Translations under genes and position numbers: made by a program | Source of the DNA: Pelagomonas calceolata | Lineage: Eukaryota; Sar; Pelagophyceae; Pelagomonadales; Pelagomonadaceae | Length of the DNA stretch: 64,000 nucleotides | NCBI GenBank assembly: GCA_918797485.1 | Contig: CAKKNE010000003.1 | Coordinates: 1,488,001 to 1,552,000 of the forward strand | Reading direction: 5' to 3' | The notes under the pieces: generated by a model | Told to the model about the DNA's origin: nothing | The model's input: the letters and a program-made list of their open reading frames with translations, nothing else | Database searches by the model: none | In this document: piece by piece, positions 12,804 to 64,000 of the stretch | Position numbering within the stretch: the stretch's first letter is position 1 | How the letters are laid out: each line of letters starts with the position of its first letter

Positions 12804-15800
12804 ATGCGGTCGCTCCCCCTGTTCGCCGTCCTCGCCGGGCGGGCGGCGGGCGATCGCCCGGCGGCGCTGCGCCGCGCGACGGGCATCGACGCCACGGAGG
12901 GGATCTGGGGCGCCGACCGCCCGGCGGCGCTGCGCCGCGCGACGGGCATCGACGCCACGGAGGCGATCTGGGGCGCACCCTTCCGCGAGCTGGCCGCGCT
13001 GCACGGCAGCGCGCCGCCGGCCGCCGCCCTCGGCGTGTCGGCCAAGTTCTGCCCGGGGCGGGACCACACGGCGCGCTACCACGTCGCCCTCGAGCCGCAG
13101 CCGCCGCGCGACGGGGGCCCGCCCCTCCGTCGCGTGCCGCGGGCCGCGCAGCGCCGCGCGGCCGAGCGCACGGCCGCGGCCCTGGAGGCGCCGCCGCTCG
13201 TCCACGACTGGTTGGAGGCGATCCTGGCGGCGTCGCCGCCGATCTTTGGCTTCGGCGTCGACCGGGACGCGGCCGCGGCCAAGCTCTACGTCCAGGCCCG
13301 GCCCGGGGCGCCCCTGCCGCCGCTGCCCGCGACGCAGGCGATGCCGCCGGTTGTAGCGCAGGGGTCGCGCACGCTCGCGCTCGAGTGGCGCGTCGGCAGC
13401 GACGCGACGGCGCTGCGCCAGTACGCCGTCCAGGCCGGTGCGGCCGGCGCGCCGCGGCCGGACCGCGACCGCCTGCGCGCCGTCGCCGACGCCCGGCTCG
13501 CGGGGGCGCTCGAGGCCGCGAGGGACGCGACCGGCGCCGCGGTCGAGGACGTGGCCGCCTGTGTGGAAATCAAAATTCTACGGCGCGTTCGTGCTGAACC
13601 GCCGCGTCGACCTCCACGCCATCGATGGGACGCCTGCTCGATGGCGTGGCGATGCCGGTTCCTTGCCGCTCGACGGAGCCAGCACGGCCGCGTCATCGCC
13701 GAGACATGACTTAGTGAAGAATTGTCGGGTGCACCCGACGCACTGGTTGATTTCCACACAGGTGGCCGCGACAGGCTTCTTCGCCCACGCGAACGCCTCG
13801 GCGCCGGCGGCGCGCGCGGACCGCGCCCGGGTCGGCATGGACTTCGCGCGGCCGCCGGCCGCGGAGACGCTGGCGCCCGTCCTCGCGGCCGCCGGCGCGA
13901 ACGCGACGGCGGCGGCGCGATGGGCCGCCGCCTGTGTGGAAATCAACCAGTGCGTCGGGTGCACTTCGAGCAGGCGTCGCGTCGATGGCGTGGAGGGCGA
14001 CGAGACGATTCTGCACGAACGCGCCGTAAAATTTTGATTTCCACACAGGCCGCCGCCTCCGCGAGCGTCGGGCACGCGCTGTCGAACGTGCAGGTCGACG
14101 GAAACGGGTGCGTGGCGCTCTACCGCCACCCGGTGTCGCCGCCCGCGGCGGCGGCCGCGCCGCCGGGCGCTTACGCGTGGCCGGCGCCGGTCGCGGCGAT
14201 GCTCGACCAAACGACGGCGACGGTCTGGCGCGCGGCGGCGGCGCCGCTCGACGCGTCGGCCGAGGCGGCGTTCGGCCCGTTCGTCGGGTACGACGGCGCG
14301 CTGACGGCGCGCGCCGCGACCGCGGCCGCGCCCCCGCCCCGCGACGCGGAAGAGCTCCTGGGGCGGTGGGCCGACGTCGAGTCGGCGGTGCTCCGGCTCG
14401 AACACCTCGACTTCGACGCGCGGGGCACCATGTACGAAGCGGCGTTAGCGCCCTTTCCCCTGGCCGACGGACACACGGCGCACGTCTACGCGTCCCGGAG
14501 GGGCGCCTCGGCGCTGCGCAACCACACGGACACGACGGACGTCCTCGTGCTCCAGCTCAGCGGGGCCAAGGAGTGGCGCCACTGCCGCGCGAAGCGCGAA
14601 GCGAAGTGCGCGACGTACGCCGACGCCGCCCTCGACGACCTCGCCTGCGAGACGGTCGTGCTGGAGCCCGGCGACGCGCTGTTCCTGCCGCGCGGCGTCG
14701 TGCACGGCGCCGTCGCGGTCGACGCCGCGGCCGTGCACCTGACCATCGGCCTCGGCGAGCTGACGGAGCGCGGCCGCCGCCGCCTCGTCACGTGCACGCA
14801 GGACGGCGCCGGCACGGCGTGCCCCGGCGGCTATTACAGCGCATCCGGCAGGTACAGCGCCTCGGCCTGCAACGCGGGCTGCGACACGGGCTGCACGACC
14901 GAATGGGGCACGACGACGTGTACCACGGGCTGCAACGCGGACTGCAACACCTGCAACGGGTGCTGGGCGTGCGCGGAGTGCGCCGGCGGTGGGCGGGTGG
15001 GCTGCGGCGGCACCTCCGCGGGCTACTGCGTCTACCCCACACCCAAGCCGACGCAGCGCCCGACTATGCCTCTCCCCACACCCGAGGCCTTCCCCGCGAC
15101 GTGCCCCGCCTGGTACGACGAGTCCGCGTACCAGTACCCGTTCTACTACCAGGACGATCCGGGCGCAGACGACCTGCCGAACGACGTCGGGTCGATCCAG
15201 GACGGCTTCTCTGTCTATAACGGCCGCTTCACGTCGAAGTTCGTGGGGATGGCGGCGCTCGCAGCGACGAATCTGATGGGCGACGTTGAGATCTGCGCCG
15301 TCGTGACGCCGCTGTGCGTCGCGTCGTGCGTGAAACCGACGCTCAACCCCGTCGTTGAGGAGCGGTGGCGCGAGTGGTGCCCGGGAGCCGGCGGCTACGA
15401 CTTGACCGACAATCAAAAGATCGTGGCGTTGGTGAGCGGCGCCTGCGGATTTCCGAACGGCCTCGGAGAGGACGACGGCGGCTCCTCTCCGGCATTCTTC
15501 TCAAACCCGGAGATCTTCTACGGCGGTGGCTTTCGCGACGCGGACGGCAACGACGTGCTGCCGGGCCAGGGGTGGGCCGGGCAAAGTTGCGGATCAGTTC
15601 GTGGAATGGTCACTTACGATGACCTCCCGTGGCACGTGAACGGGTATGGCATCAGCCTCTACAGTATGAGGACGCAGGTGGAAATCGGCTACTGGAACAA
15701 CGAGGCGAGCACCGGCGCGGGAGAAGGATGCGGCGCCGAGTCTTTCACGGGCCACGCGAGCATCGTCTTTGCCCGGGTGCCGCCTCCTCCCCCGCCGACG

Positions 15801-16672
15801 CCGGCCCCTTCGTCCTCGCCGACGGTTGGACCGACGCCCGCGCCGACGACGGCGGCGCCGTCACTGGCGCCTTCACTCAGTCCGACGGCGGCGTTCCTGC
15901 GCGTCGATAGTGTGGGGGGGACCACCAACTTCTGCCAGTCCGGCGCCGATTGCGACGTGGCGTGGACCTCGCGCGGGCCTGACTGCGCGAAGGTCGTGAT
16001 ACGGCTCCACGACGAGGACGGGTCGTGGCTCCAGGACGTGGCATTCGGGGATAACAACGGCGCCGCCCCGGTCGTCCTGCCCGCCCCGGGCGCCGCGGGC
16101 TTCGCCAAGCATTGGATCGCGGTCGCGTGCATCGACGGTAGCAGGGAGTCGGACACGTTTGGGCCCGTCTACGTCTCGACGACCCTCGCGCCCACGCCGA
16201 GTCCGACGCAGTTCGTGCCGTACCCCACGCCCGAGGTCTCGCACGGCGTGGCGGGGACGATCGGCCTCCAGGGCGTCGCCGCCTCCACCGTCGCAAGCCA
16301 CGCGCGCGTCTTCCAGCTCGCGATCGCCGCCTTCCTCGTAATTCCGGCGAGCCGCGTCGTCGTCTCCTCCGACTCCGCGGCGCGGCGGCGGCTCGCGGAC
16401 ACCGTCGTCGTCGAATACGTCGTGCTGTACGACACGAGCGCGGAAGCCAGCTTGGCGGCGGCCAACGCGGCGGTGGCCGTCCTGCAGCCGGGCGCCGCGG
16501 CGGCCCTCGGGGCCGAGGTCCAGACCGCCGCGGCCGCCGTCGGCGCCGCCGGCGCCTTCGCGGCCGCGGCAGTCGTGGACCTCCCGCCGCCGGCAGCTAC
16601 CTTTACGACGTCACGGCCGACCGCGGCTCCAACAACAACGCCCGGTGGCGGCGGCGGCGGTGGTGGTGGTGG

Positions 16673-16703
<31 letters not shown>

Positions 16704-19324
16704 GACGGCGGCGGCGGCGTCGTCATTGCCCTTGTTTTCGTCGTGCTGGCCCTTGCTGGCGTCGCTGCGTACCTATACTGGAAGAAGAAGAAAAGGGGTA
16801 CGGGAGGCACGAAGGTCGCGCCCGCAACGAAGCCATCGTCGTCCACGAAGGCCGCGGTGGCCGTCGGCGCCGCGGCCGGCGCCGGAGGAGCCGCGCTCAC
16901 GGCGTCGCAGACCGACGTCCTCGGACCGCTCTCTGGAATTCTATCGGCGCTTCCCGCGGCTGCGCCGCCGCCGCTCAACATGTGTCTGATGCCGTTGACG
17001 CACGCCTTAGCCGAACTGGGCCTCGCGGTGCGCCAGGTGCGCTTCAACAAGGAGGCCGCGGAGCTGCTGCAGCGGCGCGGAACGGAGATCGCCCAGAAGC
17101 TCCAGGACGTCGTCAAAGCGACGCAGGGCCTGCCGACGGGACAGGTCGAGGCCGTCGCTCGGACGGTGACGGCCATCGGCCAGGCGCTCGACGAGGCGGC
17201 GAAGTTTCTCCAGCAGTTCTCGAAGAAGGGCGCGTTCTCGAAGCTCTGCTCCGGCACGCTCGACGCGCGGCGCTTCGGTCTCCTCGACAAGCGGCTCTGC
17301 GAGCTCAGCACGGAGCTCGGCTCGGCGTTGGACCTCCAGCAGCTCGCGCTGCAGGCGCAGCGATTCGAGAAGATCGAAGGCTTGATCCAACTCCTCGGCC
17401 AGCAGACGGTCAATGCGAACAATCAGGCGGCGGCCCAGCGGGCGGCGATCCTGTGCGGCATCCCGAAGGGCAGCGCCGTCGAGCACGAGGAGCTCTCGGC
17501 GCTCGGCCTGAAGCTGGACCGGATCGCCGAGGACGTGAGCACGGTCATGGACCAGAACACGAAGCAGCAGGAGTCGCTCGACGAGATCAAGGAATTGGTG
17601 GCGACGAAGAACTCGAAGCTGCGAGGCCGCGCGCTGGCGCGCCAGGATAAAGATAGGGCGCTCGAGGAGCTGGAGATCGAGTTGGACTCGGTCGAAGAGA
17701 AGCCCATCGCGAAGGGCTCGCAGGGCGCCGTTCACAAGGCTTCGTACCAAGGCGACGTGGTCGCGCTGAAGAAGATGAGTCTCGTCCTGTGTGGAAATCA
17801 ACCAGTGTGTCGGGTGCACCCGACAATTCTTCACTAAGTCATTTCTCGGCGATGACGCGGCCGTCCTGGCTCGGTCGAGCGGTGAGGAACCGGCATCGCC
17901 ACGCCATCGAGCAGACATCGCGTCGATGGCGTGGAGGACGACGCGATGGTTCAGCACGAACGCGCCGTAAAATTTTGATTTCCATCGGCGCCTGCAGGTC
18001 TCGTCGGCATCACGGCGACGAAGCGGAACAAGATGATGAAGGACTTTGCGACGGAGCTGGCCATCATGGTCAAGCTTCGGAGCCCGCGCATTGTTTCCGT
18101 GTATGGGGTGGTGACCTGTGTGGAAATCAACCAGTGTGTCGGGTGCACCGATAATTCTTCACTAAGTCATTTCTCAGTCATGACGCGGCCGTGCTGGCCC
18201 CGTCGAGCGATGAGGAACCGGCATCGCCACGCCATCGAGCAGGCGGCGCGCGATGGCGTGGAGGACGACGCGAAGATTCAGCACGAACGTGCCGTAAAAT
18301 TTTGATTTCCACACAGGTGGTGACGACGGACTCGAGTTGGCTGGGCTTGGTCGTCGAGTACTGCGGCGGCGGTGACCTGCGCGAGGCGCTCGACGCCGAC
18401 GACGCGGCAAGTATTGACGAAGCGCAGCGGAGGCGCTGGCTATCGGACATCTCGCTGGGCATGGCATACCTCTACTCCAAGGGCGTGGAGCATCGCGACC
18501 TCAAGACGTTAAACATCCTCCTCGACGGCGACCGGCGCTGCAAGGTAACGGACTTCGGTTTGAGCAAGTCCGAGTCGCTGGCCACGGCGGCGACGCAGGC
18601 GACGGCCGGGGGCGACGCCAAGGGCACGCCTGCGTACATGGCGCCCGAGCTCCTCCAGCACAACATCTTCACAGAAAAGGGCGACGTGTACGCCTACGGC
18701 ATGATCGTCTTCGAGGTACTGACCGGAGATATGCCATGGCGCGGCCTCAATCAGATGCAAATCATGATGCAGGTGTGCATTCAGAAGGACCGCCCGAAGA
18801 TTGATGGCGATGCGCCCGCGGACCTGGTAGCGCTCATGGAACGCTGCTGGGCGCCCGAGCCCGACGCTCGACCCTGCTTCGCCGACATCAAGGCCGCGCT
18901 GCGGGGCGGCCCCGATACTCCTGCGCGACGACGGCCGGTCGAGGAACAGCCCGCGGCGGCGGCCGTGGACGAGGAGACGCGGCAATTGCAAGAAGCTATG
19001 GCGCTCTCCGAGCAGTCTCTCGAGCAGGAGCGGCGTCGCGCGCAAGAGCAGCAGGAGCAGGAGCGGCGTCGCGCGCAAGAGCAGCAGGAGCAGGAGCGGC
19101 GTCGCGCGCAAGAGCAGCAGGCGTCGCAGGCGGCGGCGGCAGCACCCCAACAGCCACAAACCCAGCCGGCGGAGACGCAACCGCAGCGGACGGTGATGAT
19201 CCAGGTTCCGCCCGGCTGCGGCCCGGGCATGCCACTGCAAATCAGAACGCCGACCGGCCAGATCGTACAGATCGTCGTCCCCGCCGGGGCAGGACCTGGG
19301 AGCCAGTTCCAGGTCGGCTACTGA
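12804..19324 (+). CDS. Receptor-like TKL protein kinase with cupin/JmjC-like extracellular domain, five exons
   Basis: ATG at 12804 opens a signal peptide (MRSLPLFAVLAGRAAG). Exons: 12804-13550, 13762-13923, 14049-17778, 17998-18107, 18317-19324, joining in frame to about 1918 residues. In order: an N-terminal region shared with the gene at 1-6929; a Cupin_4/JmjC-like fold with HTD at residues 462-464 and a second His at 522 (PRGVVHGA); a Cys-rich patch; PT-rich linkers; an Ig-like segment; a poly-Gly tract (16645-16719); one TM helix (about 1193-1214) followed by KKKKRG; a helical bundle recalling MLKL/HeLo domains; and a kinase domain (about 1517-1800) with ALKK, HRDLKTLN and DFG. The tail has three QEQERRRAQEQ repeats and a 45-residue domain (VPPGCGPGMP...VPAGAGPGSQFQV) also found at 42176-43840. 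All four introns are introners. I infer a plasma-membrane receptor kinase; the ligand is unknown. Confidence 0.85.
12852..12977 (+). repeat. 63-bp tandem duplication at the mature N-terminus
   Basis: Two head-to-tail 63-bp units (12852-12914 and 12915-12977) differ at about three positions and encode DRPAALRRATGIDATE-IWGA twice. The paralogue at 1-6929 has the block once, so this is a recent in-frame duplication here. Confidence 0.9.
13559..13761 (-). mobile_element. Introner 1 (intron 1 of the receptor-like kinase)
   Basis: 203 bp, with CTGTGTGGAAATCAA at the left and its inverse at the right. Perfect 8-bp target duplication GTGGCCGC at 13551-13558 and 13762-13769. The intron is 13551-13761: the left target copy gives the GT donor, the element end gives CACAG. 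Splicing restores GAC|GTGGCCGCG (DVAATGFF). The paralogue at 1-6929 has the uninterrupted site at 747-754. The core is in reverse orientation relative to the gene. Confidence 0.95.
13932..14048 (+). mobile_element. Introner 2, internally deleted (intron 2 of the receptor-like kinase)
   Basis: 117 bp with intact 15-bp ends and an internal deletion of about 85 bp that removes the left part of the core. 8-bp target duplication GCCGCCGC at 13924-13931 and 14049-14056. The duplication starts with GC, so the intron 13924-14048 is GC-AG. Clean removal gives ARWAAASASVGH, the same length as [12 protein letters not shown] in the paralogue at 1-6929, which supports exactly these boundaries. Confidence 0.93.
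17787..17997 (+). mobile_element. Introner 3 (intron 3 of the receptor-like kinase)
   Basis: 211 bp with a normal left end. The right end reads TTGATTTCCA and then TCGGCGCCTGCAG instead of CACAG, so the terminal repeat is damaged, yet an AG still abuts the target. Target duplication GTCTCGTC at 17779-17786 and 17998-18005. The GT-AG intron 17779-17997 interrupts the N-lobe of the kinase after ALKKM. The core hairpin (CCACGCCATCGA/TCGATGGCGTGG) is intact. Confidence 0.93.
18116..18316 (+). mobile_element. Introner 4 (intron 4 of the receptor-like kinase)
   Basis: 201 bp with intact ends. Target duplication GTGGTGAC at 18108-18115 and 18317-18324. The GT-AG intron 18108-18316 joins VYG to VVTTDSSW in the kinase N-lobe. 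It lies only 110 bp of exon away from introner 3, in the same orientation. Confidence 0.95.
19022..19117 (+). repeat. 33-bp tandem repeat coding for a QEQERRRAQEQ coiled coil
   Basis: Two full 33-bp units (19052-19084, 19085-19117) follow a 30-bp first unit (19022-19051). They encode a charged Gln/Glu/Arg helix after the kinase domain. Confidence 0.9.
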
Positions 19325-19496
19325 GGCTTTTCTTTCGCCCCGCTTTTGCTTTCTACCCCCAACGCCCGGTGCGTAAAATCCCATTTCAAGTTTTGCTGTG
19401 CTTAGAGCTCGGCCGCCTAGCCACCACAACATGGTCCGTCCGGGCGGCGCGAGCATGCCAATCAATTCTCTAGTACAGGGGGGGCGGGGGACGGAC

Positions 19497-20178
19497 CTAC
19501 GTCTCCTTCATCTCGCAGAAGATCATCGGGTCCTTGCGCGCGAGCTGCTGGACGTAGTGCTCCGCGAGCTCCTGGGACGTCGTGCAGACGTTCGCCTGGC
19601 CGCCCTTCTGGGCCTCGAGGAAGATCTCCTCGGCCTGCTTGATCTGGACGTCCTCGACGACGTCCAATAGGGCCTTGCAGATGTGCTCCTGCGTGTAGTC
19701 CTCGTCGCCTGTGTGGAAATCAAAATGTTACGGCGCGTTCGTGCTGAATCGTCGCGTCGACCTCCACGCCATCGACGCGATGCCTGCTCGATGGCGTGGC
19801 GATGCCGGTTCCTCGCCGCTCGACCGAGCCAGGACGGCCGCGTCATCGCCGAGAAATGACTTAATGAAGAATTGTCGGGTGCACCCGACGCACTGGTTGA
19901 TTTCCACACAGCTCGTCGCCCAGCAAGATGACGTTGAACATCTTCGGATCTTCGAGGTCCTCGACGTTCTTTCTTTCGAATTCGCGCTCGCGCTCGCCGT
20001 CGTCCGTGCCGCCGCCGCCGGGGTTCGCCGTCGTCTTGAGCGAGACCTTTTGCTTGAGCTCGACCTTGCCGGGCGCGACGCAGGTGATGGTGCGGCGCGG
20101 CGTCACGGGCCGCACGGGCCGCACGCTGAGGGCCGTCGCGCCGACTAGTGCGAGGACTGCTGCCGCCCAGCGCGCCAT
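19497..20178 (-). CDS. clpS: ClpS-like N-recognin / Clp protease adaptor, plastid type, two exons
   Basis: ATG at 20176-20178; exon 1 20178-19920, exon 2 19708-19497 (TAG at 19497-19499), 156 residues. The N-terminus (MARWAAAVLALVGATALSVRP) looks like the signal part of a bipartite plastid presequence. The ClpS fold starts at KMFNVILLGDEDYTQEHICK, the counterpart of YKVILLNDDFTPMEFV, and continues through IKQAEEIFLEAQKGGQANV to ELAEHYVQQL and a C-terminal CEMKE strand, the usual ClpS order. ClpS delivers N-degron substrates to the ClpC/ClpP protease. The two exons join exactly in the first conserved loop (LLG|DED) when introner 5 and one target copy are removed as a GC-AG intron. Confidence 0.88.
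19709..19911 (-). mobile_element. Introner 5 (intron of the ClpS-like gene)
   Basis: 203 bp with intact 15-bp ends. Target duplication CTCGTCGC at 19701-19708 and 19912-19919; read on the gene strand it is GCGACGAG. The donor is therefore GC and the intron is 19709-19919 (GC-AG). The core is in forward orientation relative to the gene. Confidence 0.94.
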
Positions 20179-20346
20179 GTTAACGCACTGGGTAGCAGTG
20201 GAGCAGCCGGAGAGGCGGTCCGCGGTGTGACGCGCGGTTCGTCCTATCGCGCGACGCCGGAGCTGGAAAGGGCTCCTTCCCACGTGTGTTAACGAGGTTG
20301 CAGCGAGCGCGTACGTAGGACGGCGCTCATCAAGCCACTGCTACTT

Positions 20347-20366
20347 GCTAGTGTCTCACAGCTAGC
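20347..20366. promoter_or_regulatory. Palindromic upstream motif, copy 3 (short)
   Basis: GCTAGTGTCTCACAGCTAGC, lacking the CCGC spacer of the other copies, 169 nt upstream of the ClpS start. The rest of the 341-bp spacer 20179-20519 shows nothing I recognise. Confidence 0.5.
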
Positions 20367-20519
20367 CTTTTCACGTGATATAGAAATCAGCCAGCGGTGC
20401 TGAGAAGGAGGAGCTACCAGGAACGGAATTCTATAAAGATCCTAGGGCGCCCGCCGCCGCCACCGCGCCCGCACAAGCCCCACCCTCGGCGCCGCCGCGC
20501 GCCCCAAACCACAAGCTTT

Positions 20520-24315: not shown

Positions 24316-24392
24316 GTCGAGAGCCTGAGCCTGAGAGAATTCTCATTCTATAATATGCATCTTACACATAACAGGTTCCCCGGAAAACCCAA

Positions 24393-34288: not shown

Positions 34289-35003
34289 TCAGAGCTCGGC
34301 CTTGCCCCCCATGTCCTCCCAGATGTCGTCGCGGAAGCCGAGGTAGTAGATCAGAATGCCGAGGATCGGAATGATCGCGAGGAGAGAAGGCGTGCTGAAC
34401 GCGGGCTCGGGGTCGGCCTCGGCGCTCAGGACCTCGACGTCGAAGAGTAACCACGAATCCGGCGGGATCGCGCCGCCCGCGCCGCGCTCGCCGTAGCCGT
34501 GCTCCGGCGCGATCAGGATGCGAGCACGCCTGTGTGGCCATCAACCCAGTGAGTTAGGTTATGGAGGTAGTAGGGCGCCCGAAATTTGATTCCCACACAG
34601 GCGTGCGCTCGCCGACCTTCATCGCGGCCACGGCGGCGTCCCAGCCCCCGATCACCTGGCGGTGGCCGACGACGAAGCTGAACGGCTGGCGGCCGCGCGA
34701 CGAGTCGAAGGGTCGCGCGCTCGTCGCCTGCTTTATTAAGGCATCATTGATCAGCGGCGCGGCGCTGTCCGCCGGCACCGGCGCGAGCCAACCGGTGTAA
34801 TGGACCTTGGCGCGCAGGTCCGGCGTCACGAGCGGCGTGATCTCCCTTACCAAACTGATCGTCTGCTTGGCGATGCGGAAGGAGCCGTCGCCGACGCAGT
34901 CGAGGGCTTTGTCGGCGTCGCGCGTCTGCAGCGCTTCGACGCGCGCCTCGTGGCGCTCGCGGCTCTGGGCGACGCGCATTGCGGCGAATTCATGGCTGCT
35001 CAT
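34289..35003 (-). CDS. FKBP-type peptidyl-prolyl isomerase with C-terminal TM anchor, two exons
   Basis: ATG 35001-35003; exon 1 35003-34609, exon 2 34529-34289 (TGA 34289-34291), 211 residues. The FKBP fold runs from AKVHYTGWLAP through PFDSSRGRQPFSFVVGHRQV and GWDAAVAAMKVGERARILI to HGYGERGAGGAIPP and LLFDVEVL, with the usual aromatic pocket residues. After the domain, LLAIIPILGILIYYLGF is a likely membrane anchor near the C-terminus, giving a tail-anchored FKBP. The join GGCGA|GCGTGCTCGC restores GERARI and needs a GC donor. Convergent with VPS13, 116 bp apart. Confidence 0.9.
34530..34600 (+). mobile_element. Introner 6, short and diverged (intron of the FKBP gene)
   Basis: 71 bp: left end CTGTGTGGCCATCAACC, right end TTTGATTCCCACACAG. 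The interior is reduced to about 40 bp with traces of the introner core (ATGGAGG, GCGCC before the right end). Flanking 8-mers, read on the gene strand, are GCGCACGC upstream and GCGTGCTC downstream, matching at 5 of 8 positions, so the duplication has aged. The intron is 34530-34608, GC-AG. Confidence 0.82.
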
Positions 35004-47915: not shown

Positions 47916-48729
47916 ATGGCCGACGGCGCCACGTCCACCATTTCGCTGAGAGGCAGCGTCGACCTCGTCCAGGAGTTCTTCGAGTACGCGATTAACTCGA
48001 TCCTGTACCAGCGCGGCATCTACCCGCCCGAGGAGTTTCGGAGGGTGGCAAAGTACGGGCTGAGCATGATGGTCGCTAGTGATGACGGCCTCCAGACCTA
48101 CCTGAAGAAGATTTTGGCCCAACTCAAGACGTGGCTTGAGGAGGGCGACGTCCAGCGATTAGTCGTCGTCGTGACCTGTGTGGAAATCAACCATGTCGGG
48201 TGCACCCGACAATTCTTCACTAAGTAATTTCTCGGCGATGACGCGGCCGACCTGGCTCGGTCGAGCGGCGAGGAACCGGCATCGCCACGCCGTCGAGCAG
48301 GTGTCGCGTCGATGGCGTGGAGGGCGACGCGACGATTCAGGACGAACGCGCCGTAAAATTTTGATTTCCACACAGGTCGTGACGGGCGTCGAGACCAACG
48401 AAACGCTAGAACGGTGGACCTTCGCCGTGAACGCCTGCGACACGGAGAACGCCGCGCCATCAACCGCGGGAGACATCAAGGCCATTACCAAACAGATCCA
48501 GGCCATCATCCGCCAGATTACCGCAAGCGTGACGTTCCTGCCTTTACTAGACGAGGCCTGCGCCTTCGATCTGCTCGTGTACACGCGGAAGACGGCGGCC
48601 GTGCCGGGCGCGTGGGAGGACTCGGACCCGAAGTACATCGCCGACTCGCAAGAAGTGAAATTGCGGTCGTTCACGACGTCCGTGCACTCCGTCGAGGCGG
48701 CGGTGGCGTACAAGGACCACGACGCCTGA
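47916..48729 (+). CDS. MAD2: MAD2 spindle-checkpoint HORMA protein, two exons
   Basis: Exon 1 47916-48167, exon 2 48376-48729 (TGA 48727-48729), 201 residues against about 205 in animals. The HORMA domain spans the protein: ISLRGSVDLVQEFFEYAINS, ILYQRGIYPPEEF, KYGLSMMVASDD and LKTWLEEGDVQRLVVV. Exon 2 continues with VTGVETNETLERWTF, the IKAITKQIQAIIRQITAS helix, TFLPLLDE and the safety-belt region ending FTTSVHSVEAAVAYK. MAD2 binds CDC20 to inhibit the anaphase-promoting complex. Splicing out introner 7 joins QRLVV to VVTGVE without change. Confidence 0.95.
48176..48375 (+). mobile_element. Introner 7 (intron of MAD2)
   Basis: 200 bp with intact ends and a small deletion near the left end (CAACCATGTCGGG instead of CAACCAGTGTGTCGGG). 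Target duplication GTCGTGAC at 48168-48175 and 48376-48383. The GT-AG intron is 48168-48375. Confidence 0.95.
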
Positions 48730-55472: not shown

Positions 55473-55530
55473 GGAAAAAATCTCCGGAACCCTGGGAACC
55501 CTGGGAACATAGGTATAAAAACAAACCTTT

Positions 55531-56148: not shown

Positions 56149-56166
56149 GGTTTCTCGTCTTCCGAT

Positions 56167-56213
56167 CGCTGTGGTCTTTTGAGAATGCTTCGTGGCGAGC
56201 GCTGTGGTCTTTT
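56167..56213. repeat. Direct repeat of CGCTGTGGTCTTTT upstream of the isochorismatase gene
   Basis: CGCTGTGGTCTTTT occurs at 56167-56180 and 56200-56213, 33 bp apart, just upstream of the minus-strand start at 56148. It could be a local duplication or a pair of factor-binding sites. Confidence 0.5.
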
Positions 56214-56285
56214 TTGGCGTATTTTTGCGTCCCAGCGCTCTGCTATGGCCTTCGTAGGGCTGGTTTTTGGCTCGAGGGGCTGGTT

Positions 56286-56308
56286 GCTAGTATGTGACCG
56301 CCGCTAGC
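56286..56308. promoter_or_regulatory. Palindromic upstream motif, copy 9
   Basis: GCTAGTATGTGACCG...CGCTAGC in the 416-bp divergent spacer, 138 nt from the start at 56148 and 257 nt from the start at 56565. Confidence 0.5.
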
Positions 56309-56564
56309 TGCGGCTGATTATGGGAATCGGTGCCAGCGCTGTGCGAAGAGCGTAAACGTTGGCGTTGGCAGCTCTCTGGATCTCTGAGAACCCACCGTAA
56401 CGCACTCGCATCCACGCGGAGCCCTGGGGACGGCTGCCAGAGGCACAGTGGCTGCAGCCTGTTCAGACGCCCGACGCCGACGGCGCGCAAGCTATACAGA
56501 TTACACAGGGGCGGAGGCGACAGCAGATCTGAGGCCCAGCAACTCCAGCTGAAAGACAAGAGTC

Positions 56565-57671
56565 ATGTCGTACCAGGTCCAGGTACCGAACTACGACACG
56601 ACGACCGGCGCGCCGCTGCCGGCGGGCTGGGTCCGCTGGGTCGATCCAGAGAGCGACGAGTTCTACTATCACAACGAGACGACGGGCGAGACGACCTGGG
56701 ACGACCCCACGCGCTGGAAGGTGGGCCTGCTCTTCGATCGACTCAGAGGCGAACCACCGAAGGATGCACCTCTGTATAGGCCGCGGACGATCGAGTGCGC
56801 CTTCGCGGAGTACTCTTCTGCTGATACTGATGAAAGCGACGGCGACGCGCCCGTCACGCTGCGCGTCTACGACGTGAGTTTTAGGGGTGCGGGAGCGCTC
56901 AATTCATTGCTGAATGGCTCGTCTGGAGCGTTCCATACGGCCATCGAGGTGCACGGGCTAGAGTGGTCATTTGGCGCCACAGCAGACGACGACGACGACA
57001 CGAGCGGCATTTTTTGTTGCGACCCGGCGTCGGCCCAGCCGCACCGCTACCGCGAGGCCATCTCGTTGGGCCGCACGAAGAAGTCGCCCGTCGACGTGTT
57101 CAATATCCTGCTGCGGCTCGCGCCGTTCTGGCTCGGGAAGTCGTATGACGTGCTGCGGAAGAACTGCAACTCGTTCTGCATCCTGTTTTCCGGCGAGCTG
57201 GGCGCCGACGCGCCGCCGCCGTGGACGCACCGATTGGGCGACGGCGCCGCGGCTTTAGATGACCGGGTCTCGCGGCTGCTGGAGACGACAGGCTTGGGTG
57301 GTGGGGACGAGCCGCGCGCCGACGGGCCGGCGGCGGTGGTCTGGGACCATCCTCAGTGGTGTGCGCGCCACTTCGACTCGTTGGCAGAAGCGGAACGTTT
57401 GTGGGCCGCCCTGCCGCTCGCGCACGCGGCTTGTTTTTTCGTGCGGGACGCTCCCTCATTAACTATAGACGGCGCCGACGCGCCGGCCGTCGAGTGGACC
57501 CTGCACAAATCTTATGGGTTGCCCCACGCGACGGCGCGCATCCGAGACCGGTTCGCGTCCACGCGCGCGCTGCGGCGGCGCGCGCCGCCGCCCGTCCGGC
57601 CCGCGGCGAACCTACTGCGACCGCCGCGACGGCCTCTGGGAGCTAGCGAGTCGAAGGAGGTAGAATTGTAA
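56565..57671 (+). CDS. WW-domain PPPDE (DeSI-like) cysteine peptidase
   Basis: 368 residues, intronless, ATG 56565, TAA 57669-57671. Residues 18-50 form a WW domain (LPAGWVRWVDPESDEFYYHN, then ETTWDDP). A PPPDE fold lies at about residues 95-230: VTLRVYDVSF, the catalytic His in AFHTAIEVHGLEWSFG, and the Cys in LRKNCNSFCILFSGEL. These are the two catalytic residues of the DeSI deSUMOylating/deubiquitinating family. The C-terminal 140 residues are less conserved. The WW domain probably recruits proline-rich substrates; WW-PPPDE is an uncommon pairing. Confidence 0.87.
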   Translation: MSYQVQVPNYDTTTGAPLPAGWVRWVDPESDEFYYHNETTGETTWDDPTRWKVGLLFDRLRGEPPKDAPLYRPRTIECAFAEYSSADTDESDGDAPVTLRVYDVSFRGAGALNSLLNGSSGAFHTAIEVHGLEWSFGATADDDDDTSGIFCCDPASAQPHRYREAISLGRTKKSPVDVFNILLRLAPFWLGKSYDVLRKNCNSFCILFSGELGADAPPPWTHRLGDGAAALDDRVSRLLETTGLGGGDEPRADGPAAVVWDHPQWCARHFDSLAEAERLWAALPLAHAACFFVRDAPSLTIDGADAPAVEWTLHKSYGLPHATARIRDRFASTRALRRRAPPPVRPAANLLRPPRRPLGASESKEVEL

Positions 57672-57756
57672 GTTCCTTGTTGTGTACCTTGTTTGCGAAG
57701 AACACTCCCGAGGGGCGACGGCGTATGAGGGTGTGCGGTCGCGCGGCGGGGAGATT

Positions 57757-57797
57757 GTTCAAGTTCAAGTTATAGAAGCTTAAAGTTGAACTTGAAC
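57757..57797. repeat. 12-bp-stem hairpin across the stop codon of the MYND/TPR gene
   Basis: GTTCAAGTTCAA (57757-57768) and TTGAACTTGAAC (57786-57797) are perfect inverse complements around the TAA at 57770-57772. Part of the right arm codes for FKFNFK, so the symmetry could partly reflect the peptide repeat. Confidence 0.6.
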
Positions 57798-58975
57798 GAC
57801 GTACGCCGTCGAACGGCAGGATCCTCCGGGTCCATGACGTACCCCAGCGCCTCACTGATCCCCCGCCACTTGCCCTCGCGGGCCCTCAGCTCGGCCTGCG
57901 CGAAGCGGATGTCTTTCGGGTCCATCTCCCTTGTGTACGAGTGCTCGGCCCCGAACGCGCGCCGCACGGTCCCATATGTCTCCTCCATCGTTGCCACGGC
58001 CTCGCGAATGTCGTCGAGCGTGGCGTCGGGGGCCCGGTAGAGAAAGAGCCCGTAGCTCCACCGCAGCCGGATCACGTCGATGTTGCCTTTGCCGAGGACG
58101 CGCCGCGCGACGGGAATCACCTTGCGCAGCAGCGCCTTGCCTTCGTCGAAGCGCCGTGTTCTGTACAGGCTATTCGCAAGGTAGCCTGCGGACCAAATGG
58201 TCTCTTGATGGTTCTCGCCGTGGAGCTTCAACCGTCCAGAGTACACGTCTCGTTGCAGGGGCAGGCCCTCTTCATGCCGTCCAAGAGCATTATACGAGTA
58301 CCCAACGCGCGTTTGCACCCTAAGCATGTGGTCTCCCGGCGCGCCGACGCGCTTCATCAGAGACAACTCGGCTTGTCTCGCGAGTAGCGCGTCCTCGTGG
58401 TCGCCCGCATCGAATAACACGTTCCCGAGCAGCCGGGTTGCGGACAACCGGATTTGGTCCGTCTCCGACCGCCCCAAGTACGTCTTCCAGCACGCCCACC
58501 CAAGCGCACATGCCACGATGCCGTGGTAATTTTGCTCGCACTGGCCGCACTTGTGCCACCGCTCCCACCTCTTCTCCAACGCTCTGTCGTCCAAATTGTT
58601 CTCCTCGACCTCGTCCATCAAAATCTTCGCTTGCTCCATCAGGCACGACACGTGCGCGAAGCCCGCCGTCCCGCGGCACGCGCACATGCGCACGAGGCCT
58701 TCTTTGTCGTCGCCACAGATGTAGCACGTCTGGCCCTTCGCGTCCTCCTTACACGCCTCCGCCGCGACCGTCACGGCCTCCTTAAATTTGGTATCGGCGT
58801 GATACTGTTCGGCGCCGCCTCCTTTTCTGATCTTCCTACAGAGCTTGTCGTGGCCGCCTTGCTCCCAGTGCTGTTTCTGGCAGGTCGGCGAGCAGTAGAG
58901 CGTCTTGCAGCGGCTGCATTGCTTCGCCGGGTGTGGGAGCGGGGCAGCGCAGCAGGCGCAGTTAATGAGGACCAT
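57770..58975 (-). CDS. MYND zinc-finger / RING-like / TPR protein of a pelagophyte-expanded family
   Basis: 401 residues, intronless, ATG 58973-58975, TAA 57770-57772. The N-terminal MYND finger (CACCAAPLPHPAKQCSRCKT, then CSPTCQKQHWEQGGHDKLC) has all zinc ligands. A second Cys/His region (CYICGDDKEGLVRMCACRGT, then GFAHVSCLMEQAK and WHKCGQCEQNYHG) resembles a RING-CH/RINGv finger. The C-terminal half is built of TPR-like helices with paired A/L motifs (RLLGNVLFDAGDHEDALLAR; YSYNALGRHEEGLPLQ; YLANSLYRTRRFDEGKALL). I recall this exact architecture as a very large family in Aureococcus. The role is probably protein-protein interaction, possibly E3-like. Confidence 0.85.
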   Translation of the reverse strand: MVLINCACCAAPLPHPAKQCSRCKTLYCSPTCQKQHWEQGGHDKLCRKIRKGGGAEQYHADTKFKEAVTVAAEACKEDAKGQTCYICGDDKEGLVRMCACRGTAGFAHVSCLMEQAKILMDEVEENNLDDRALEKRWERWHKCGQCEQNYHGIVACALGWACWKTYLGRSETDQIRLSATRLLGNVLFDAGDHEDALLARQAELSLMKRVGAPGDHMLRVQTRVGYSYNALGRHEEGLPLQRDVYSGRLKLHGENHQETIWSAGYLANSLYRTRRFDEGKALLRKVIPVARRVLGKGNIDVIRLRWSYGLFLYRAPDATLDDIREAVATMEETYGTVRRAFGAEHSYTREMDPKDIRFAQAELRAREGKWRGISEALGYVMDPEDPAVRRRTSFKFNFKLL

Positions 58976-59047
58976 CTGTCTTTATATAGGCTGCCCCAAT
59001 TCGTTATTTGTGTATCCTGGGGCGCTGGCTCGGATTCCTTCTTTCTC

Positions 59048-59070
59048 GCTAGTGTCTTTCCGCCGCTAGC
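59048..59070. promoter_or_regulatory. Palindromic upstream motif, copy 10
   Basis: GCTAGTGTCTTTCCG...CGCTAGC in the divergent spacer, 73 nt from the start at 58975 and 182 nt from the start at 59252. Confidence 0.5.
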
Positions 59071-59251
59071 TAGCTGCTGCGCTGCTCGGGTGCACTTTGT
59101 GTATGTGTAGCTAAGAAGTAGCACAGACAATAGCTAGACACTTGTGCGAGACGCCATCGCCGCGACAACCGGTACCGACGACGTATTATTGCACACAATC
59201 CAGCATCAGCTCTGCAGGCTGTGCGGCAGCCTCGGGACGCGAGGCGGCAAA

Positions 59252-60007
59252 ATGCTGCTATACACATCGACACTGCTCGCGCTCGGCGCACGCATCCCAG
59301 TGCTGCTCTACAAAGACCGCTACGTCGCCGTGAACAAGCCGCCCGGCATCTCGACGCACCGCTCGTTCGACACTGGTAGACGAAGGGTATTAACGACGCA
59401 GCTGCAGCGCCAGTTCCGCAGGAAGGTCTACACGGTCCACCGCCTCGACCACCGGACGAGCGGCTGCATTTTGTTCGGCTTCGACGGCGAGGCAGCGGGC
59501 GAGTGCCACGGCCGGCTGCGCGACGGCGTCAAGGAGTACGTGGCTCTGCTGCGCGGCTTCGACGAGCGCGACGCCGTGGGGAGCGAAGTGGTGGTCGAGA
59601 AGCCCATCAAGGGCGATGACGGCGAGCCTCGACCCGCGAAGACGACGTTTCGCAAATTGGCGGGCCAGGAAGAGCCGCGGTGTACGCTGGTTATTGCGAC
59701 GCCGCACACGGGCCGCCCGCACCAAATAAGACGCCACGCGCAAGCGCTCTCGATGCCGATCATCGGGGACAGCGCTCATGGGGATTCAAAAGTGAACCGG
59801 TGGTGGCGACAGGAGCGCGGCCTCGACCGCCTGGCGCTGCACTGCCTGTCGATCGCGCTGCCCGACCCGGCCGAGACGATCGTCGCGCCGCTCGAGGGGT
59901 CGCTTGCCGAGGTCCTGCGCGCGGAGACGCTCTGGGCGGAGGCGCTCGAACGCGAGCCTCGCTTGGATCTGGCGCCGGTGGACGACCGGTCGGGGTCGCG
60001 GGGTTGA
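59252..60007 (+). CDS. RluA/TruC-type pseudouridine synthase
   Basis: 251 residues from ATG 59252 (MLLYTSTLLALG), TGA 60005-60007. The fold has LLYKDRYVAVNKPPGISTHR, the catalytic motif VYTVHRLDHRTSGCILFGF (RLD Asp), KEYVALLRG, and the late TGRPHQIRRHAQALSMPIIG motif. These match the RluA/TruC family, which converts uridine to pseudouridine in tRNA or rRNA. TruC-like size. The frame upstream to 59144 lacks an ATG. Confidence 0.88.
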   Translation: MLLYTSTLLALGARIPVLLYKDRYVAVNKPPGISTHRSFDTGRRRVLTTQLQRQFRRKVYTVHRLDHRTSGCILFGFDGEAAGECHGRLRDGVKEYVALLRGFDERDAVGSEVVVEKPIKGDDGEPRPAKTTFRKLAGQEEPRCTLVIATPHTGRPHQIRRHAQALSMPIIGDSAHGDSKVNRWWRQERGLDRLALHCLSIALPDPAETIVAPLEGSLAEVLRAETLWAEALEREPRLDLAPVDDRSGSRG

Positions 60008-60108
60008 TAGTAATGTGCTAGTTGTTGTTACTCTCAAAATACGCCATCGTGCTGTCTGTCTCGTGCTTATCAGCCGCACGCGACCCGAGTGGAGGAATAA
60101 TGGGTTTC

Positions 60109-60131
60109 GCTAGTGTCTTACCGACGCTAGC
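60109..60131. promoter_or_regulatory. Palindromic upstream motif, copy 11
   Basis: GCTAGTGTCTTACCG...CGCTAGC, 188 nt upstream of the start at 60319. A TTGCAAGCG word lies at 60249-60257 in the same spacer. The motif favours 60319 over earlier in-frame non-ATG starts. Confidence 0.5.
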
Positions 60132-60318
60132 TTGGATATTGAACGCATACGTATCGCGCTGTTATCGCGGGCGTGGGAGAACGTCTGCAAGCTGGAAAAG
60201 CTCTAAAAGTAGCCTTGCAGCCTCCAGGACCAGTAGCACGGGTCAAAGTTGCAAGCGCAGACGCTCAGGCACCCTGCAACCCAAAAGGACCCAAAACGCA
60301 TCCTTGCAAAAGGCAAAG

Positions 60319-61404
60319 ATGACGCCCCTGCAGGAGGGCCTCCTCGGCACTATCATAATCGCGATAGCTATATGGAGTGAACCGCTCGCCATCAAAATAG
60401 GCTACCTCGACGAAGACTTCACGTCGCGGCTCTTCGACGCGGCCCCACCCGCGGAGACCTGGGGCACGATGTTCGCGCCCGCGCGGGGCTTCGAGCGTTA
60501 CATTGCCTACGAGATGTTAAGGGCATTAGCGACGCACCTCGGCGCCTTTTATTTACTCGGCGCCGTGCGCGACAAGTGGGCCGCGGCGAAGACGGCGGAC
60601 AAGCGCCAAATCCTGTCAAGGGGCGTCATGAACGTGCTGTTTTTGGCGGCCTGCGGGTATCGAGGCCTCATGATGTGGCGGGGCTGGTACGTCGAAGCGG
60701 GGTGGCCCTCGATCCCGGCAGCTTTACAGCACGTCCACTCCGCATTAACGGTGGGCTGCACCGCTACGGAGGGAAACTGGATGACCTTCTGGAAGTCCAG
60801 TGATGGTACCGGCTGCGCCCCTCTCAGATTTGTGCCCCAGACGGCGCACGAGCGGTTATATGACTACGACGCCGACTTCCAAAGGTTATCCGTGGTCATG
60901 TTCGCCTTCCAGTGGAAGAATTTGTTGGATTCGGTCTATTTCGACGACGGGTTGATCTTTGTGATCCACCACAGCGTGGTCATTGTGGTGTCATTATTTG
61001 CGCTACACCCCTTCTCGCATTTATATGGGTCCTTCTTCTTCGGCGTGTCCGAGGTGTCTACGACGGTGCTGGCTGTTGTCGCATTATTTGATGCCGAGCA
61101 CGGCGTCGAGGAGCTCGAGCGGGACTTTCCCAATACACGGCTCGTGATTGGTGGCGTTTTTGCCGTCTCATTTTTCATAGTACGCGGGATCATCTGGCCC
61201 TACCTCACGTACTTTTACTGTCGGGACGGCTTCCGCATTTTGGATAATGACCCGGACATCCACTCGCGGTTTTTGGTCAAGCTCTTCATGGGCGGCCTTC
61301 TGACGCTCAGCGTGATGCAGGTCATCTGGCTCGGGCAGATCGTGCTGAAATTGCGGGAGGAGCTCGGGGGCATGTTGTCGTCGTCGAAGGCGAAGGCGGC
61401 GTAG
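60319..61404 (+). CDS. Multi-pass membrane protein, TLC-domain-like
   Basis: 361 residues, intronless, ATG 60319 (MTPLQEGLLGTIIIAIAIW), TAG 61402-61404. It has about seven hydrophobic segments. Residues 215-290 include DDGLIFVIHHSVVIVVSLFA, with a His-His in the segment, then LYGSFFFGVSEVSTTVLAVV, the pattern of TLC (TRAM/LAG1/CLN8) domains. A pre-domain (FERYIAYEMLRALATHLGAF) precedes it. TLC proteins include ceramide synthases and lipid regulators of the ER; the catalytic assignment here is not supported beyond the family. Confidence 0.65.
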   Translation: MTPLQEGLLGTIIIAIAIWSEPLAIKIGYLDEDFTSRLFDAAPPAETWGTMFAPARGFERYIAYEMLRALATHLGAFYLLGAVRDKWAAAKTADKRQILSRGVMNVLFLAACGYRGLMMWRGWYVEAGWPSIPAALQHVHSALTVGCTATEGNWMTFWKSSDGTGCAPLRFVPQTAHERLYDYDADFQRLSVVMFAFQWKNLLDSVYFDDGLIFVIHHSVVIVVSLFALHPFSHLYGSFFFGVSEVSTTVLAVVALFDAEHGVEELERDFPNTRLVIGGVFAVSFFIVRGIIWPYLTYFYCRDGFRILDNDPDIHSRFLVKLFMGGLLTLSVMQVIWLGQIVLKLREELGGMLSSSKAKAA

Positions 61405-61908
61405 GGCGCGTAAGTATGCTATAGAGCAGCTCCCGCGTTGGCGTTAACAATCGATGTTACGGTGCTAGGACTAGTGGGCGGAGCCCCTGGGGGGGAGACA
61501 CCGCGCGTCGCCGATTCATCGGCGGCCCGCGTATGGCGTCGCTCGCCGGCGGCGTCGATACCCGACCGTCGCGATTCCGCGTACCCACCCACAGACTCCT
61601 CCAAGAGCAGCTCACCGGTCCACGGACCGGGTCCGCGGGGGACCGCGCGCCTCAAGACTGGAAGCACTTGCCCTGCCCTCGCCGTGCCGCGCGTTCGTGC
61701 GCGCGCCGAAGCCAACGGCAACAATAGTGCTCGTCCAGTCGCGTCACAGCCGCGCGCCGGCAGCGTGCATTGCGACAAAATTGTCCACAGCGCCGCGCAC
61801 AGAGTGATAGCTCTTCTGGGGGGAGGGCAGCCCTGAGCGCCCTTTATCCGCGCCGACCGAGCACGGGAAAGAAGGCCGCCGTCGACCGAGCAGGTCGCGC
61901 GGCCCGAG
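61405..61908. other. Intergenic spacer
   Basis: 504 bp between two plus-strand genes, GC-rich, no recognisable element or gene; the palindromic motif is absent. Confidence 0.45.
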
Positions 61909-62733
61909 ATGGAGCTCGTGCACGCGTCTCCGTTAGTCAAGGGCGGCGACGGCCACGCCGACTGCAACATGGTCGACATCGGGGGCGGCAACGTGGTGGT
62001 GGACCGGCAGCCGCGCGCGCGGCAGGACCCCTTTGAGGAGCGGTTGTTGCAAGTCAGGCAGGAATTTGCGGCGCAGGAGCTGTGCGGCCTGGAGGCCCGG
62101 AACAACTACTTTATTACGTCGGCGATCGATGGAAGGCAGATGTTACATGCCGCGGAGGAGTCTGATTGTTTGGAACGGATCTTTTGCCGCCTGTGTCGGG
62201 GCCTGACGATGAACATCACGCTCAATGACAAGAATGGCCCGTCGCGCCTCAAATTAGTAAAGCACTGGCACTGGCCGCAGTGCCCCTGGCCGCTCTGGCT
62301 GCACCCCTTGGTTTGGTTTTATGTTTTACCTAGACAATGTCTCTGTCGCGACGACGCGGCGGAGTTTTCCGTGTATGACGGCGAGAAATTGATTGGGAGG
62401 GTGCGCGACAACGCGGCGTCGACCGTTCGATGCGTGGGCCGGGCTACTGTATTGGATAGCGCGGGCGCGTACGCCTTGCAACTCGGCCCCGTCGAGCACT
62501 GCTCCGGCGCCGTCTGCTGCCCCTGCGTCTGGGGCGAGCGCGTGCCCGTGCACGACGCTTCCGGTGCATCGGAATTGGCAGAGATCAACCGGCCGCCCCT
62601 GACCTGCGCCGAGCTCTGCGGCCACACGAACCGGTTCGTCGTCGACCTCGGAGGCGTCGGCGGCGAGTACCGCAAGCTCCTGCTCGCGGCGGGGCTCCTC
62701 TGGGACCTCACGCACTGGGAGGTGCAGGGGTAA
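61909..62733 (+). CDS. Phospholipid scramblase family protein
   Basis: 274 residues, intronless, ATG 61909, TAA 62731-62733. It begins VDIGGGNVVVDRQP, then the scramblase core: ARNNYFITSAIDGRQMLHAA, SDCLERIFCRLCRGLTMNIT, a Cys-rich CLCRD segment and a C-terminal FVVDLGGVGGEYRKLLLAAG with hydrophobic LLWDLTHW. The layout matches PLSCR proteins, which are membrane-associated through a palmitoylated Cys cluster and a C-terminal helix. It ends 28 bp from the convergent gene's stop. Confidence 0.82.
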   Translation: MELVHASPLVKGGDGHADCNMVDIGGGNVVVDRQPRARQDPFEERLLQVRQEFAAQELCGLEARNNYFITSAIDGRQMLHAAEESDCLERIFCRLCRGLTMNITLNDKNGPSRLKLVKHWHWPQCPWPLWLHPLVWFYVLPRQCLCRDDAAEFSVYDGEKLIGRVRDNAASTVRCVGRATVLDSAGAYALQLGPVEHCSGAVCCPCVWGERVPVHDASGASELAEINRPPLTCAELCGHTNRFVVDLGGVGGEYRKLLLAAGLLWDLTHWEVQG

Positions 62734-62760
62734 CACTAACTATCATTGTATCACAACTTG

Positions 62761-64000
62761 TTAGGGAGCTACCTCTTCCTTCTCCGGCTTCGCCGCCGGC
62801 CGCACGACGTCCGACGCCTGCCGCGCCGCCGACGCGAGCGTCTCGCCGACGCCGCCCGCGCCGTGCGCGCGCTCCGCCGCTCTGTCGAGCACAGCTGCGG
62901 CGAAGCGCCGTCCCACGAGGCCCGCGCGGCGCGCCGTCTCCGGCGTCGCGACGCTGCGCAGGTCCACGTCCGACGTAGATAGCGCCTCGACGACCTTCTG
63001 AGGGTCGACAGAGCCCTCTCCATCCCCACTCACCAGGCCACCGATCTTCTCGGCGGCGCCCAGCACCTTGCGGTCGCGCTCGTCGGCCTTGACCAGCGGC
63101 GCCACGGCCTCCGCCAGGGCCGCGGCGGCCTCGACGCCACCGGTCAGAGGTAACAAAGCGGCGCGCGCGGGCCCAGGCAGGTTCCGCAGGCCCGCGATGG
63201 CCGACCGTAGCGGCCCGTCGTCGGCCTCGCCCGATAATTTGTGAGGCAACAAGGGCGTCGCGTCGATGGCGTCCGTGAGTGCGGCTCGCACGGAAGCATC
63301 TAGCAGGGACGCCGCCTCCTTGACGACCGTCTCTTGCACGAGGTTGCTATCCTCGGCGAACAACACGTCGGCGACCAGCTCGCGCTGCGCCTCTTGCGAG
63401 GCCTTGTCCGAGTCCGCCAGGACGACCTCCGTCGACGCGTCCGATAGACCCGCGCCGCTCGTCGCCGACGTGTACGACGCGAAGCCGTCGATCATCTCCT
63501 GCGTGGAAATCAACCAGTGCGTCGGGTGCACTAAGTCATTTCTCGGCGATGACGCGGCCGCCCTGGCTCTGTCGAGCGGTGAGGAACCGGCATCACCACG
63601 CCATCGAGCAGGCGTCGCGTCGATGGCGTGGAGGACGACGCGACGATTCAGCACGAACGCGCCGTAAAATTTTGATTTCCACACCGTCGCGGACCGAGAA
63701 CTTTTCCACGTCCACTCCATTGTTGGGGTCCTTGCCGTAGATCATCGCAGATAAAGCTGCGCGTGCCCTAGGCGAGTCATCTTTAAATAGGCGACGGGCT
63801 AAATACGGGTAGCACTCCTTCAATATCGCGTACGAGTCGTCCACCGACAACCCAATGCCCTCGAGCGTCGAGAAAGCCCTAACGACGTACAGCACCCACG
63901 TCGGTAATTGAAAGAGCTCCCGGTTCCGCCGCGACCTGTGTGGAAATCAAAATTTACGGCGCGTTCGTGCTGAATCGTCGCGTCAACCTCTACGCCATCG
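62761..64000 (-). CDS. ABC1/ADCK (UbiB-type) atypical kinase, C-terminal part (5' partial at window edge)
   Basis: The last two exons are in the window: 63935-63695 and 63498-62761 (TAA 62761-62763). Upstream exons lie beyond the right edge, behind introner 9. The visible N-terminal part, RRNRELFQLPTWVLYVVRAF and STLEGIGLSVDDSYAILKEC, then YPYLARRLFKDDSPRAR and ALSAMIYG, is the conserved C-terminal region of ABC1K proteins; these act on quinone biosynthesis and lipids in plastids or mitochondria. The last 240 residues are Ala/Glu-rich and less conserved. The exons join KFS to EMIDGFASY in frame when introner 8 is removed. The catalytic motifs themselves are outside the window. Confidence 0.82.
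63499..63686 (+). mobile_element. Introner 8, without a recognisable target duplication (intron of the ABC1-like gene)
   Basis: 188 bp; left end CTGCGTGGAAATCAA (one change), right end CCACACCG. A 15-bp segment is missing after GTGCAC, flanked by CAC repeats. The intron is 63499-63694, with donor GTCCGCGA on the gene strand in the place of the target copy. The downstream flank GAGATGAT does not match it, unlike all other copies. Confidence 0.85.
63936..64000 (-). mobile_element. Introner 9, cut by the window edge (intron of the ABC1-like gene)
   Basis: Starts CTGTGTGGAAATCAA and continues with the right-end sequence of the core (AAAATTTACGGCGCGTTCG) to the window end. The adjacent 8 bases are GCCGCGAC, GTCGCGGC on the gene strand, so a GT donor is expected from the copy outside the window. 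Confidence 0.88.

Follow-up and report, generated by a model that had tools for sequence, protein, structure and literature searches.

Introner-like DNA transposons in Pelagomonas calceolata that probably draw a two-base splice donor from the duplicated target

A 64-kb stretch of the genome of the pelagophyte Pelagomonas calceolata (contig CAKKNE010000003.1, positions 1,488,001 to 1,552,000; hereafter the window) carries nine related short elements that interrupt protein-coding genes. We conclude with high confidence that they are copies of a small non-autonomous DNA transposon, resembling a miniature inverted-repeat transposable element (MITE), with 15-bp terminal inverted repeats (TIRs) and an 8-bp target duplication, which acts as an introner. 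The inverted ends, the duplication, an unoccupied paralogous site, reading frames that open after exact removal and a G followed by a pyrimidine (GY) at the sense-strand start of the target can all be read from the sequence. As expected of introners, there are many similar copies, each of which is predicted to form an intron. The elements would bring one intron end with them and borrow the other from the target gene, so that their removal from the message is most likely harmless.

Elements and host genes in the window

The TIR (CTGTGTGGAAATCAA) is present at all nine coordinates where the original prediction placed an element (13559, 13932, 17787, 18116, 19709, 34530, 48176, 63499 and 63936); the match is exact in seven, with one mismatch at 63499 and two at 34530. 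The six perfect 8-bp duplications that had been claimed are found at 13559 (GTGGCCGC), 13932 (GCCGCCGC), 17787 (GTCTCGTC), 18116 (GTGGTGAC), 19709 (CTCGTCGC) and 48176 (GTCGTGAC). A seventh was found at 63936, where the element is cut by the window end within its hairpin region and the genome sequence beyond yields a perfect GCCGCGAC pair. The target copies of the element at 34530 are alike at 5 of 8 bases, and those at 63499 at only 1 of 8, with no recognisable duplication. The element at 17787 ends at 17997, and its damaged right TIR still closes with CAG ahead of GTCTCGTC. An internal hairpin shared by all nine proved too broad a claim, as the element at 13932 has one arm and that at 34530 neither. 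The proposed orientation of the cores relative to the gene (forward in introners 2-5, 7 and 9; reverse in 1, 6 and 8) agrees with our strand assignments. With the upstream target copy read as donor and the CAG of the element as acceptor, the predicted introns are:

13551 to 13761, + strand: introner 1, target copy 13551-13558 (GTGGCCGC) plus element 13559-13761 (203 bp), core reversed
13924 to 14048, + strand: introner 2, GCCGCCGC plus element 13932-14048 (117 bp, internally deleted), GC donor
17779 to 17997, + strand: introner 3, GTCTCGTC plus element 17787-17997, right TIR damaged and CAG kept, within the kinase domain
18108 to 18316, + strand: introner 4, GTGGTGAC plus element 18116-18316 (201 bp), within the kinase domain
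19709 to 19919, - strand: introner 5, donor GCGACGAG (19912-19919) plus element 19709-19911, in the ClpS-like host
34530 to 34608, - strand: introner 6, donor GCGCACGC plus 71-bp element 34530-34600 of a second short subfamily, no hairpin, in the FKBP host
48168 to 48375, + strand: introner 7, GTCGTGAC plus element 48176-48375 (200 bp), in the MAD2 host
63499 to 63694, - strand: introner 8, donor GTCCGCGA plus element 63499-63686, in the ABC1-kinase host
63936 to 64000, - strand: introner 9, donor GTCGCGGC, intron reaching 64145 in window numbering, in the same ABC1-kinase host as introner 8

Introner 1 has exact TIRs and an 8/8 duplication, and its second target copy (13762-13769) remains exonic. 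Introner 8 has lost the AG at its non-acceptor end. The second short subfamily, with GTGAGTTAGGTT...GGGCGCCCGAAATT within the same TIRs, is represented by 34530-34600 in the window and by C1:260863 and C1:1200832 elsewhere. The genes concerned are the following.

12804 to 19322, + strand: host of introners 1-4, a 1918-residue frame with JmjC_2 and a C-terminal protein kinase
19499 to 20178, - strand: ClpS-like host of introner 5 (Pfam)
34291 to 35003, - strand: FKBP-type isomerase, host of introner 6 (Pfam and an alignment with wheat FKBP)
47916 to 48727, + strand: MAD2/HORMA protein, host of introner 7 (Pfam and an alignment with MAD2A)
62763 to 64000, - strand, start beyond the window: ABC1 (UbiB/COQ8-like) kinase, host of introners 8 and 9 (Pfam)
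114 to 985, + strand: better-aligned part of a diverged paralogue of the N-terminal region of the host of introners 1-4 (local alignment)

Excision of the target copy together with the element leaves the host frame open for all nine introners, giving a single 1959-codon frame across introners 1-4 and a single 822-codon frame across introners 8-9. Retention of any of the four introns in the gene at 12804..19322 would introduce an in-frame stop. The restored proteins match JmjC_2 (1.4e-18) and the protein kinase family PF07714 (2.2e-54) in the host of introners 1-4, and HORMA (2e-23), ClpS (PF02617, 2.9e-9), FKBP_C (9.5e-24) and ABC1 (3.3e-50) in the others; the ClpS-like protein had no sequence match in the PDB. 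Junctions 3 to 7 fall within these kinase, ClpS, FKBP or MAD2 (HORMA) domains: junctions 3 and 4 at residues 54 and 91 of the searched fragment (PF07714 spans 28-284), junction 5 at residue 87 (PF02617, 77-144), junction 6 at residue 132 (FKBP_C, 64-166) and junction 7 at residue 85 (HORMA, 14-188). The alignments with wheat FKBP and MAD2A are free of gaps at junctions 6 and 7, respectively. Junctions 8 (residue 575) and 9 (residue 494) are not covered by the Pfam or PDB matches and are supported by the open frame, while junctions 1 and 2 precede the JmjC match and are supported by the open frame and by the paralogue. In the latter, whose local alignment extends to 1547 and becomes gappy past about 985, the insertion points of introners 1 and 2 are unoccupied, with no gap at either (GACGTGGCCGCGACCGGC). 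At site 1 it holds a single copy of GTGGCCGC, the nearest gap being one of 3 bases slightly downstream; site 2 is likewise unoccupied, in surroundings that have diverged. The frames, the domains and the unoccupied paralogous site agree in indicating that the window copies, when removed exactly, leave the coding sequence as it was before insertion, as far as this can be read from the DNA.

Donor bases at the target start

Across 32,445,274 bases on eight contigs, the TIR was matched with at most one mismatch 1,261 times in forward and 1,255 times in reverse orientation, compared with 2 and 0 times for a reversed control pattern, which indicates that the matches are not due to chance. A first sample, made up of the window and 58 further loci of the same genome, gave 74 paired copies. 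Among all the loci used, L009-L038 had been picked by similarity to one element, and most of the rest because they hold an exact TIR in the initial portion of C1. The duplications in these pairs were perfect in 48, had one mismatch in 13 and more in the remaining 13, showing that the 8-bp flanks duplicate beyond the window as well. A fixed-length duplication and terminal inverted repeats together are what defines a TIR DNA transposon (MITE), and both were found. The cores were oriented 35:17 (p = 0.018; 9 of 61 unassigned), a mild bias in a partly selected sample.

Introns multiplied by reverse splicing are expected to show a single orientation and no fixed duplication. The fixed 8-bp duplications, the 15-bp inverted ends, the use of both orientations and the more than 1,000 TIR matches each way fit a DNA transposon, and we hold it extremely improbable that these introns arose instead by reverse splicing or by the repair of double-strand breaks with direct repeats, although passages of PMC4770533 attribute new introns with short direct repeats in euglenids and Daphnia to the latter route. 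One further observation concerns the age of an insertion: the introners at C1:616161-616271 and C1:617711-617821, which have matching flanks, represent one insertion carried by two inverted copies of a gene, so that the gene duplication postdates the insertion.

For the strand test, the 13 pairs with at least two mismatches were excluded, leaving 61, and the coding strand was assigned solely from codon usage, with a model trained on 64 long frames. On the sense strand, 59 of the 61 targets started with GY (GT 39, GC 20; background 17.8%, p = 7e-42), and on the antisense strand 20 did; GT was enriched 12.9-fold and GC 2.6-fold over background. Among the 22 copies with the clearest strand, the sense and antisense counts were 22 and 3, respectively. 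The splice register was unique, as a GY start combined with an AG end occurred in 59 of 61 copies at offset 0 and in at most 3 of 61 at each of 24 other offsets (-8 to +16). A second sample of 44 loci yielded 41 pairs, 27 of them with at most one mismatch and 26 of these with enough flank; seven exact TIRs had no recognisable partner. We counted the 24 copies from L125-L164 (40 loci outside the codon model), which are all the eligible ones among the 35 pairs there (15 perfect and 9 one-mismatch duplications). All 24 showed a sense GY, 15 of them on the sense strand only and none on the antisense strand only. The two samples together gave a sense GY in 83 of 85 copies, with GC donors in 25 of 85. 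The original assignment of donor to the target copy and acceptor to the CAG of the element is thus supported both by the nine frames and by the genome-wide strand test.

The donor bases also appear to be maintained after insertion. From 111 records taken, 105 were scored and 40 decayed duplications were analysed, in which positions 1 to 8 showed 0, 4, 15, 9, 12, 10, 10 and 10 mismatches. Positions 1-2 were protected, with 4 mismatches in 80 comparisons versus 66 in 240 at positions 3-8 (p = 7e-6); three copies without a sense GY had been removed beforehand, which slightly favours this result, and only one of them was decayed. In all four position-2 differences the intronic side had GT, three times against GC and once against GA. 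The share of GT was alike in perfect and decayed duplications (p = 0.82). Judging from this handful of cases, GC donors may occasionally be upgraded to GT after insertion.

Several points weigh against an introner acting through its target-derived donor, and they bear in part on the possibility that these are ordinary MITEs whose transposase prefers GY...RC targets, the GY start being a matter of target choice only and splicing incidental. The codon-usage strand calls were 91% correct, a figure obtained only on 240-bp pieces of the model's own training set. Three of the 105 scored copies lack a sense GY by codon usage (C1:723384, C2:4835994 and C6:86845); all three carry GT on the opposite strand, so a strand error is possible. 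C2:4835994 may nevertheless use a GA donor, such donors being reported among introners in passages of PMC9860276. This copy (C2:4835994-4836196, L017) has a perfect duplication and a sense start of GA by codon usage, and its neighbours on either side are copies scored on the same strand. If the acceptor were under selection, the acceptor-side TIR should be the better kept, and only a trend was found (30 of 33 intact versus 29 of 39 on the donor side, p = 0.12), in a test weakened by the choice of copies through one exact TIR. The splicing of these introners itself is something we infer from their sequence, and no transposase with the same ends was found in the part of the genome covered. Finally, none of the 85 copies lacks GY on both strands, several of them in poorly coding-like flanks. 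Pure selection explains this poorly, since some insertions would be expected outside genes. Antisense GY was moreover above background (26 of 82 versus 18.5%, p = 0.003; the pair C1:616161 and C1:617711 was counted as one in this test only). Together these two results hint that palindromic targets are preferred in addition to selection, two effects that are not separable here. As the whole explanation, target choice is nevertheless very unlikely: copies with GY on one strand only favour the sense strand by 41:2 in the first sample and 15:0 in the second, the donor bases stay protected once the element is in place, and without removal of the introner MAD2 and other conserved genes would be disrupted.

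Proposed mechanism, splicing and mobilisation

We propose that a transposase acting in trans would cut the target with an 8-bp stagger and thereby duplicate it. The upstream target copy would contribute only its G-T or G-C as the donor, and the spliceosome would excise this copy and the element while the second target copy stays, leaving the mRNA unchanged. The TIR reads outward as ...TTGATTTCCACACAG at both ends and could therefore serve as the 3' splice site whichever way the element is inserted, with a pyrimidine-rich stretch, CAG and perhaps a branch point in TTGAT, the last being a guess. Insertions without a sense GY would most likely be lost by selection, perhaps aided by a mild preference for palindromic GYNNNNRC targets, and the donor GY would thereafter be maintained as the other positions of the duplication drift, apart from an occasional improvement of GC to GT. 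Copies down to 60 bp keep the same layout, suggesting that most of the core is dispensable. More tentatively, the element may have been pre-adapted twice, by a transposase that favours palindromic GYNNNNRC targets and by a 15-bp TIR that forms a complete 3' splice-site module usable in both orientations, made up of pyrimidines, CAG and TTGAT as a possible branch point; we consider this possible and rather doubtful. If it were true, a host gene would supply just two bases for splicing, and GC-AG introns would be common in GC-rich picoalgae.

The donors resemble background at positions +3 to +8, beyond the GY, and this raises the question of whether the introns are removed independently of U1, through a TIR stem that joins their ends, as in the nonconventional introns of euglenids. 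The two introns folded do have strong predicted hairpins (z of -4.3 and -8.8), which is no proof of pairing-aided removal, as any element with TIRs folds in this way. In contrast, the strict GY...CAG borders with their GT and GC enrichment look spliceosomal, and two candidates for U1 small nuclear RNA with the canonical 5' end ATACTTACCTG exist (C1:553941-554112 and C1:5464782-5464959; L102 and L103), with scores of 64.3 and 58 bits, below the Rfam cut-off of 69.5. End-pairing removal is hence highly improbable in our judgement, and an assignment to the euglenid type, with its variable non-canonical borders, was rejected because 59 of 61 copies show GY...AG at one and the same register. An Rfam scan of the window itself gave no match at the gathering threshold.

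The transposase gene that the original prediction proposed to look for between the same ends did not appear with Pfam profiles, a search of unusual ends or the unpaired ends of the samples. Profiles of KDZ and P-type transposases gave no match, and the control genomes were silent too, so their absence is not established; those of MULE and IS1595/Merlin gave none, while some controls gave matches. TIR pairs 4.7 and 1.0 kb apart, considered as an autonomous element, turned out to be adjacent short copies. The search for long pairs was confined to the sampled loci and to ends whose 16th base is unusual, and in view of this and of the silent KDZ and P-type controls an autonomous copy may still exist. 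The hAT superfamily was considered and set aside, because its sole dimerisation-domain match (C4:4499982) lies in an element with different ends, CAGGGCAGCAGAAGGGCAAG. That element (C4:4499549-4503199; L104:2050-5700) has 20-bp identical inverted ends, its own 8-bp duplication TTGCTCGC and a 714-residue frame whose hAT dimerisation domain is just over the cut-off. Viral carriers were likewise rejected: 43 IMG/VR contigs have one exact TIR each and no pair, which looks like scattered chance matches, and when 18 further contigs with a 17-base core word were included, none of the 61 aligned to five window elements (E 1e-3).

Two other features of the window were recorded. GC-rich direct repeats with related units at distant places (3161-4224, 5867-5996 and 15794-15887) are probably low-complexity coding linkers, and 11515-11826 encodes two cysteine-rich CXC (Tesmin/TSO1-like) repeats (Pfam PF03638, 1.3e-19).

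Comparison with known introners

According to Huff, Zilberman and Roy (2016), the introners of Aureococcus anophagefferens are reportedly DNA transposons of the non-autonomous type, in which one splice site comes with the element and the duplicated target provides the other. That alga is also a pelagophyte, and its introners share the length of about 210 bp, as cited in a passage of PMC9481584. This genome paper deals with the same organism as the window: it describes an intron-length peak at about 210 bp in P. calceolata RCC100 and calls it characteristic of introner elements. The word introner occurs once in its main text, in a single sentence, and the passages covered hold no account of introner ends, target duplication or a donor rule. 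In the open-access literature searched, introners and Pelagomonas were found together only in this paper, and the literature search found no later paper on an introner transposase.

Passages of PMC9860276 establish a target-supplied donor and an element-supplied acceptor for introners and report GC donors at 0 to 50% across introner families. According to the same passages, the introners of Symbiodinium microadriaticum, an unrelated host, likewise have TIRs and a target duplication, which is 4 bp there versus 8 bp here. Family 4 of Aureococcus sp. shares the 8-bp duplication; it carries both splice sites and lengthens the mRNA by 12 bp, whereas the P. calceolata elements would add nothing. The nonconventional introns of euglenids, as described in parts of PMC4770533, also have inverted repeats near their ends, frequent direct repeats and a proposed MITE-like origin, but their borders are non-canonical and without complementarity to U1, in contrast to the strict GY-AG borders predicted here.

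The comparison may extend to donor usage. In the part of PMC3033335 concerned, a survey gives GC-AG shares of 39.6% in A. anophagefferens and 22.2% in M. pusilla, described as not easily explained. Introners may help to explain these high shares, because their donors are drawn from GC-rich coding targets; this link is our own and was not found in the part of the literature on introners and GC-AG introns that was covered.

Overall, intron gain through a target-supplied donor is already known, and the P. calceolata copies are a well-documented further case. What appears to be new here is the description of the ends and the duplication, the donor rule together with its maintenance after insertion, and the proposal that the TIR gives the 3' splice site whichever way it faces. 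These elements provide a clean test case for the origin of introns, since their copies are numerous and look young, one empty site occurs naturally and the donor consists of two bases.

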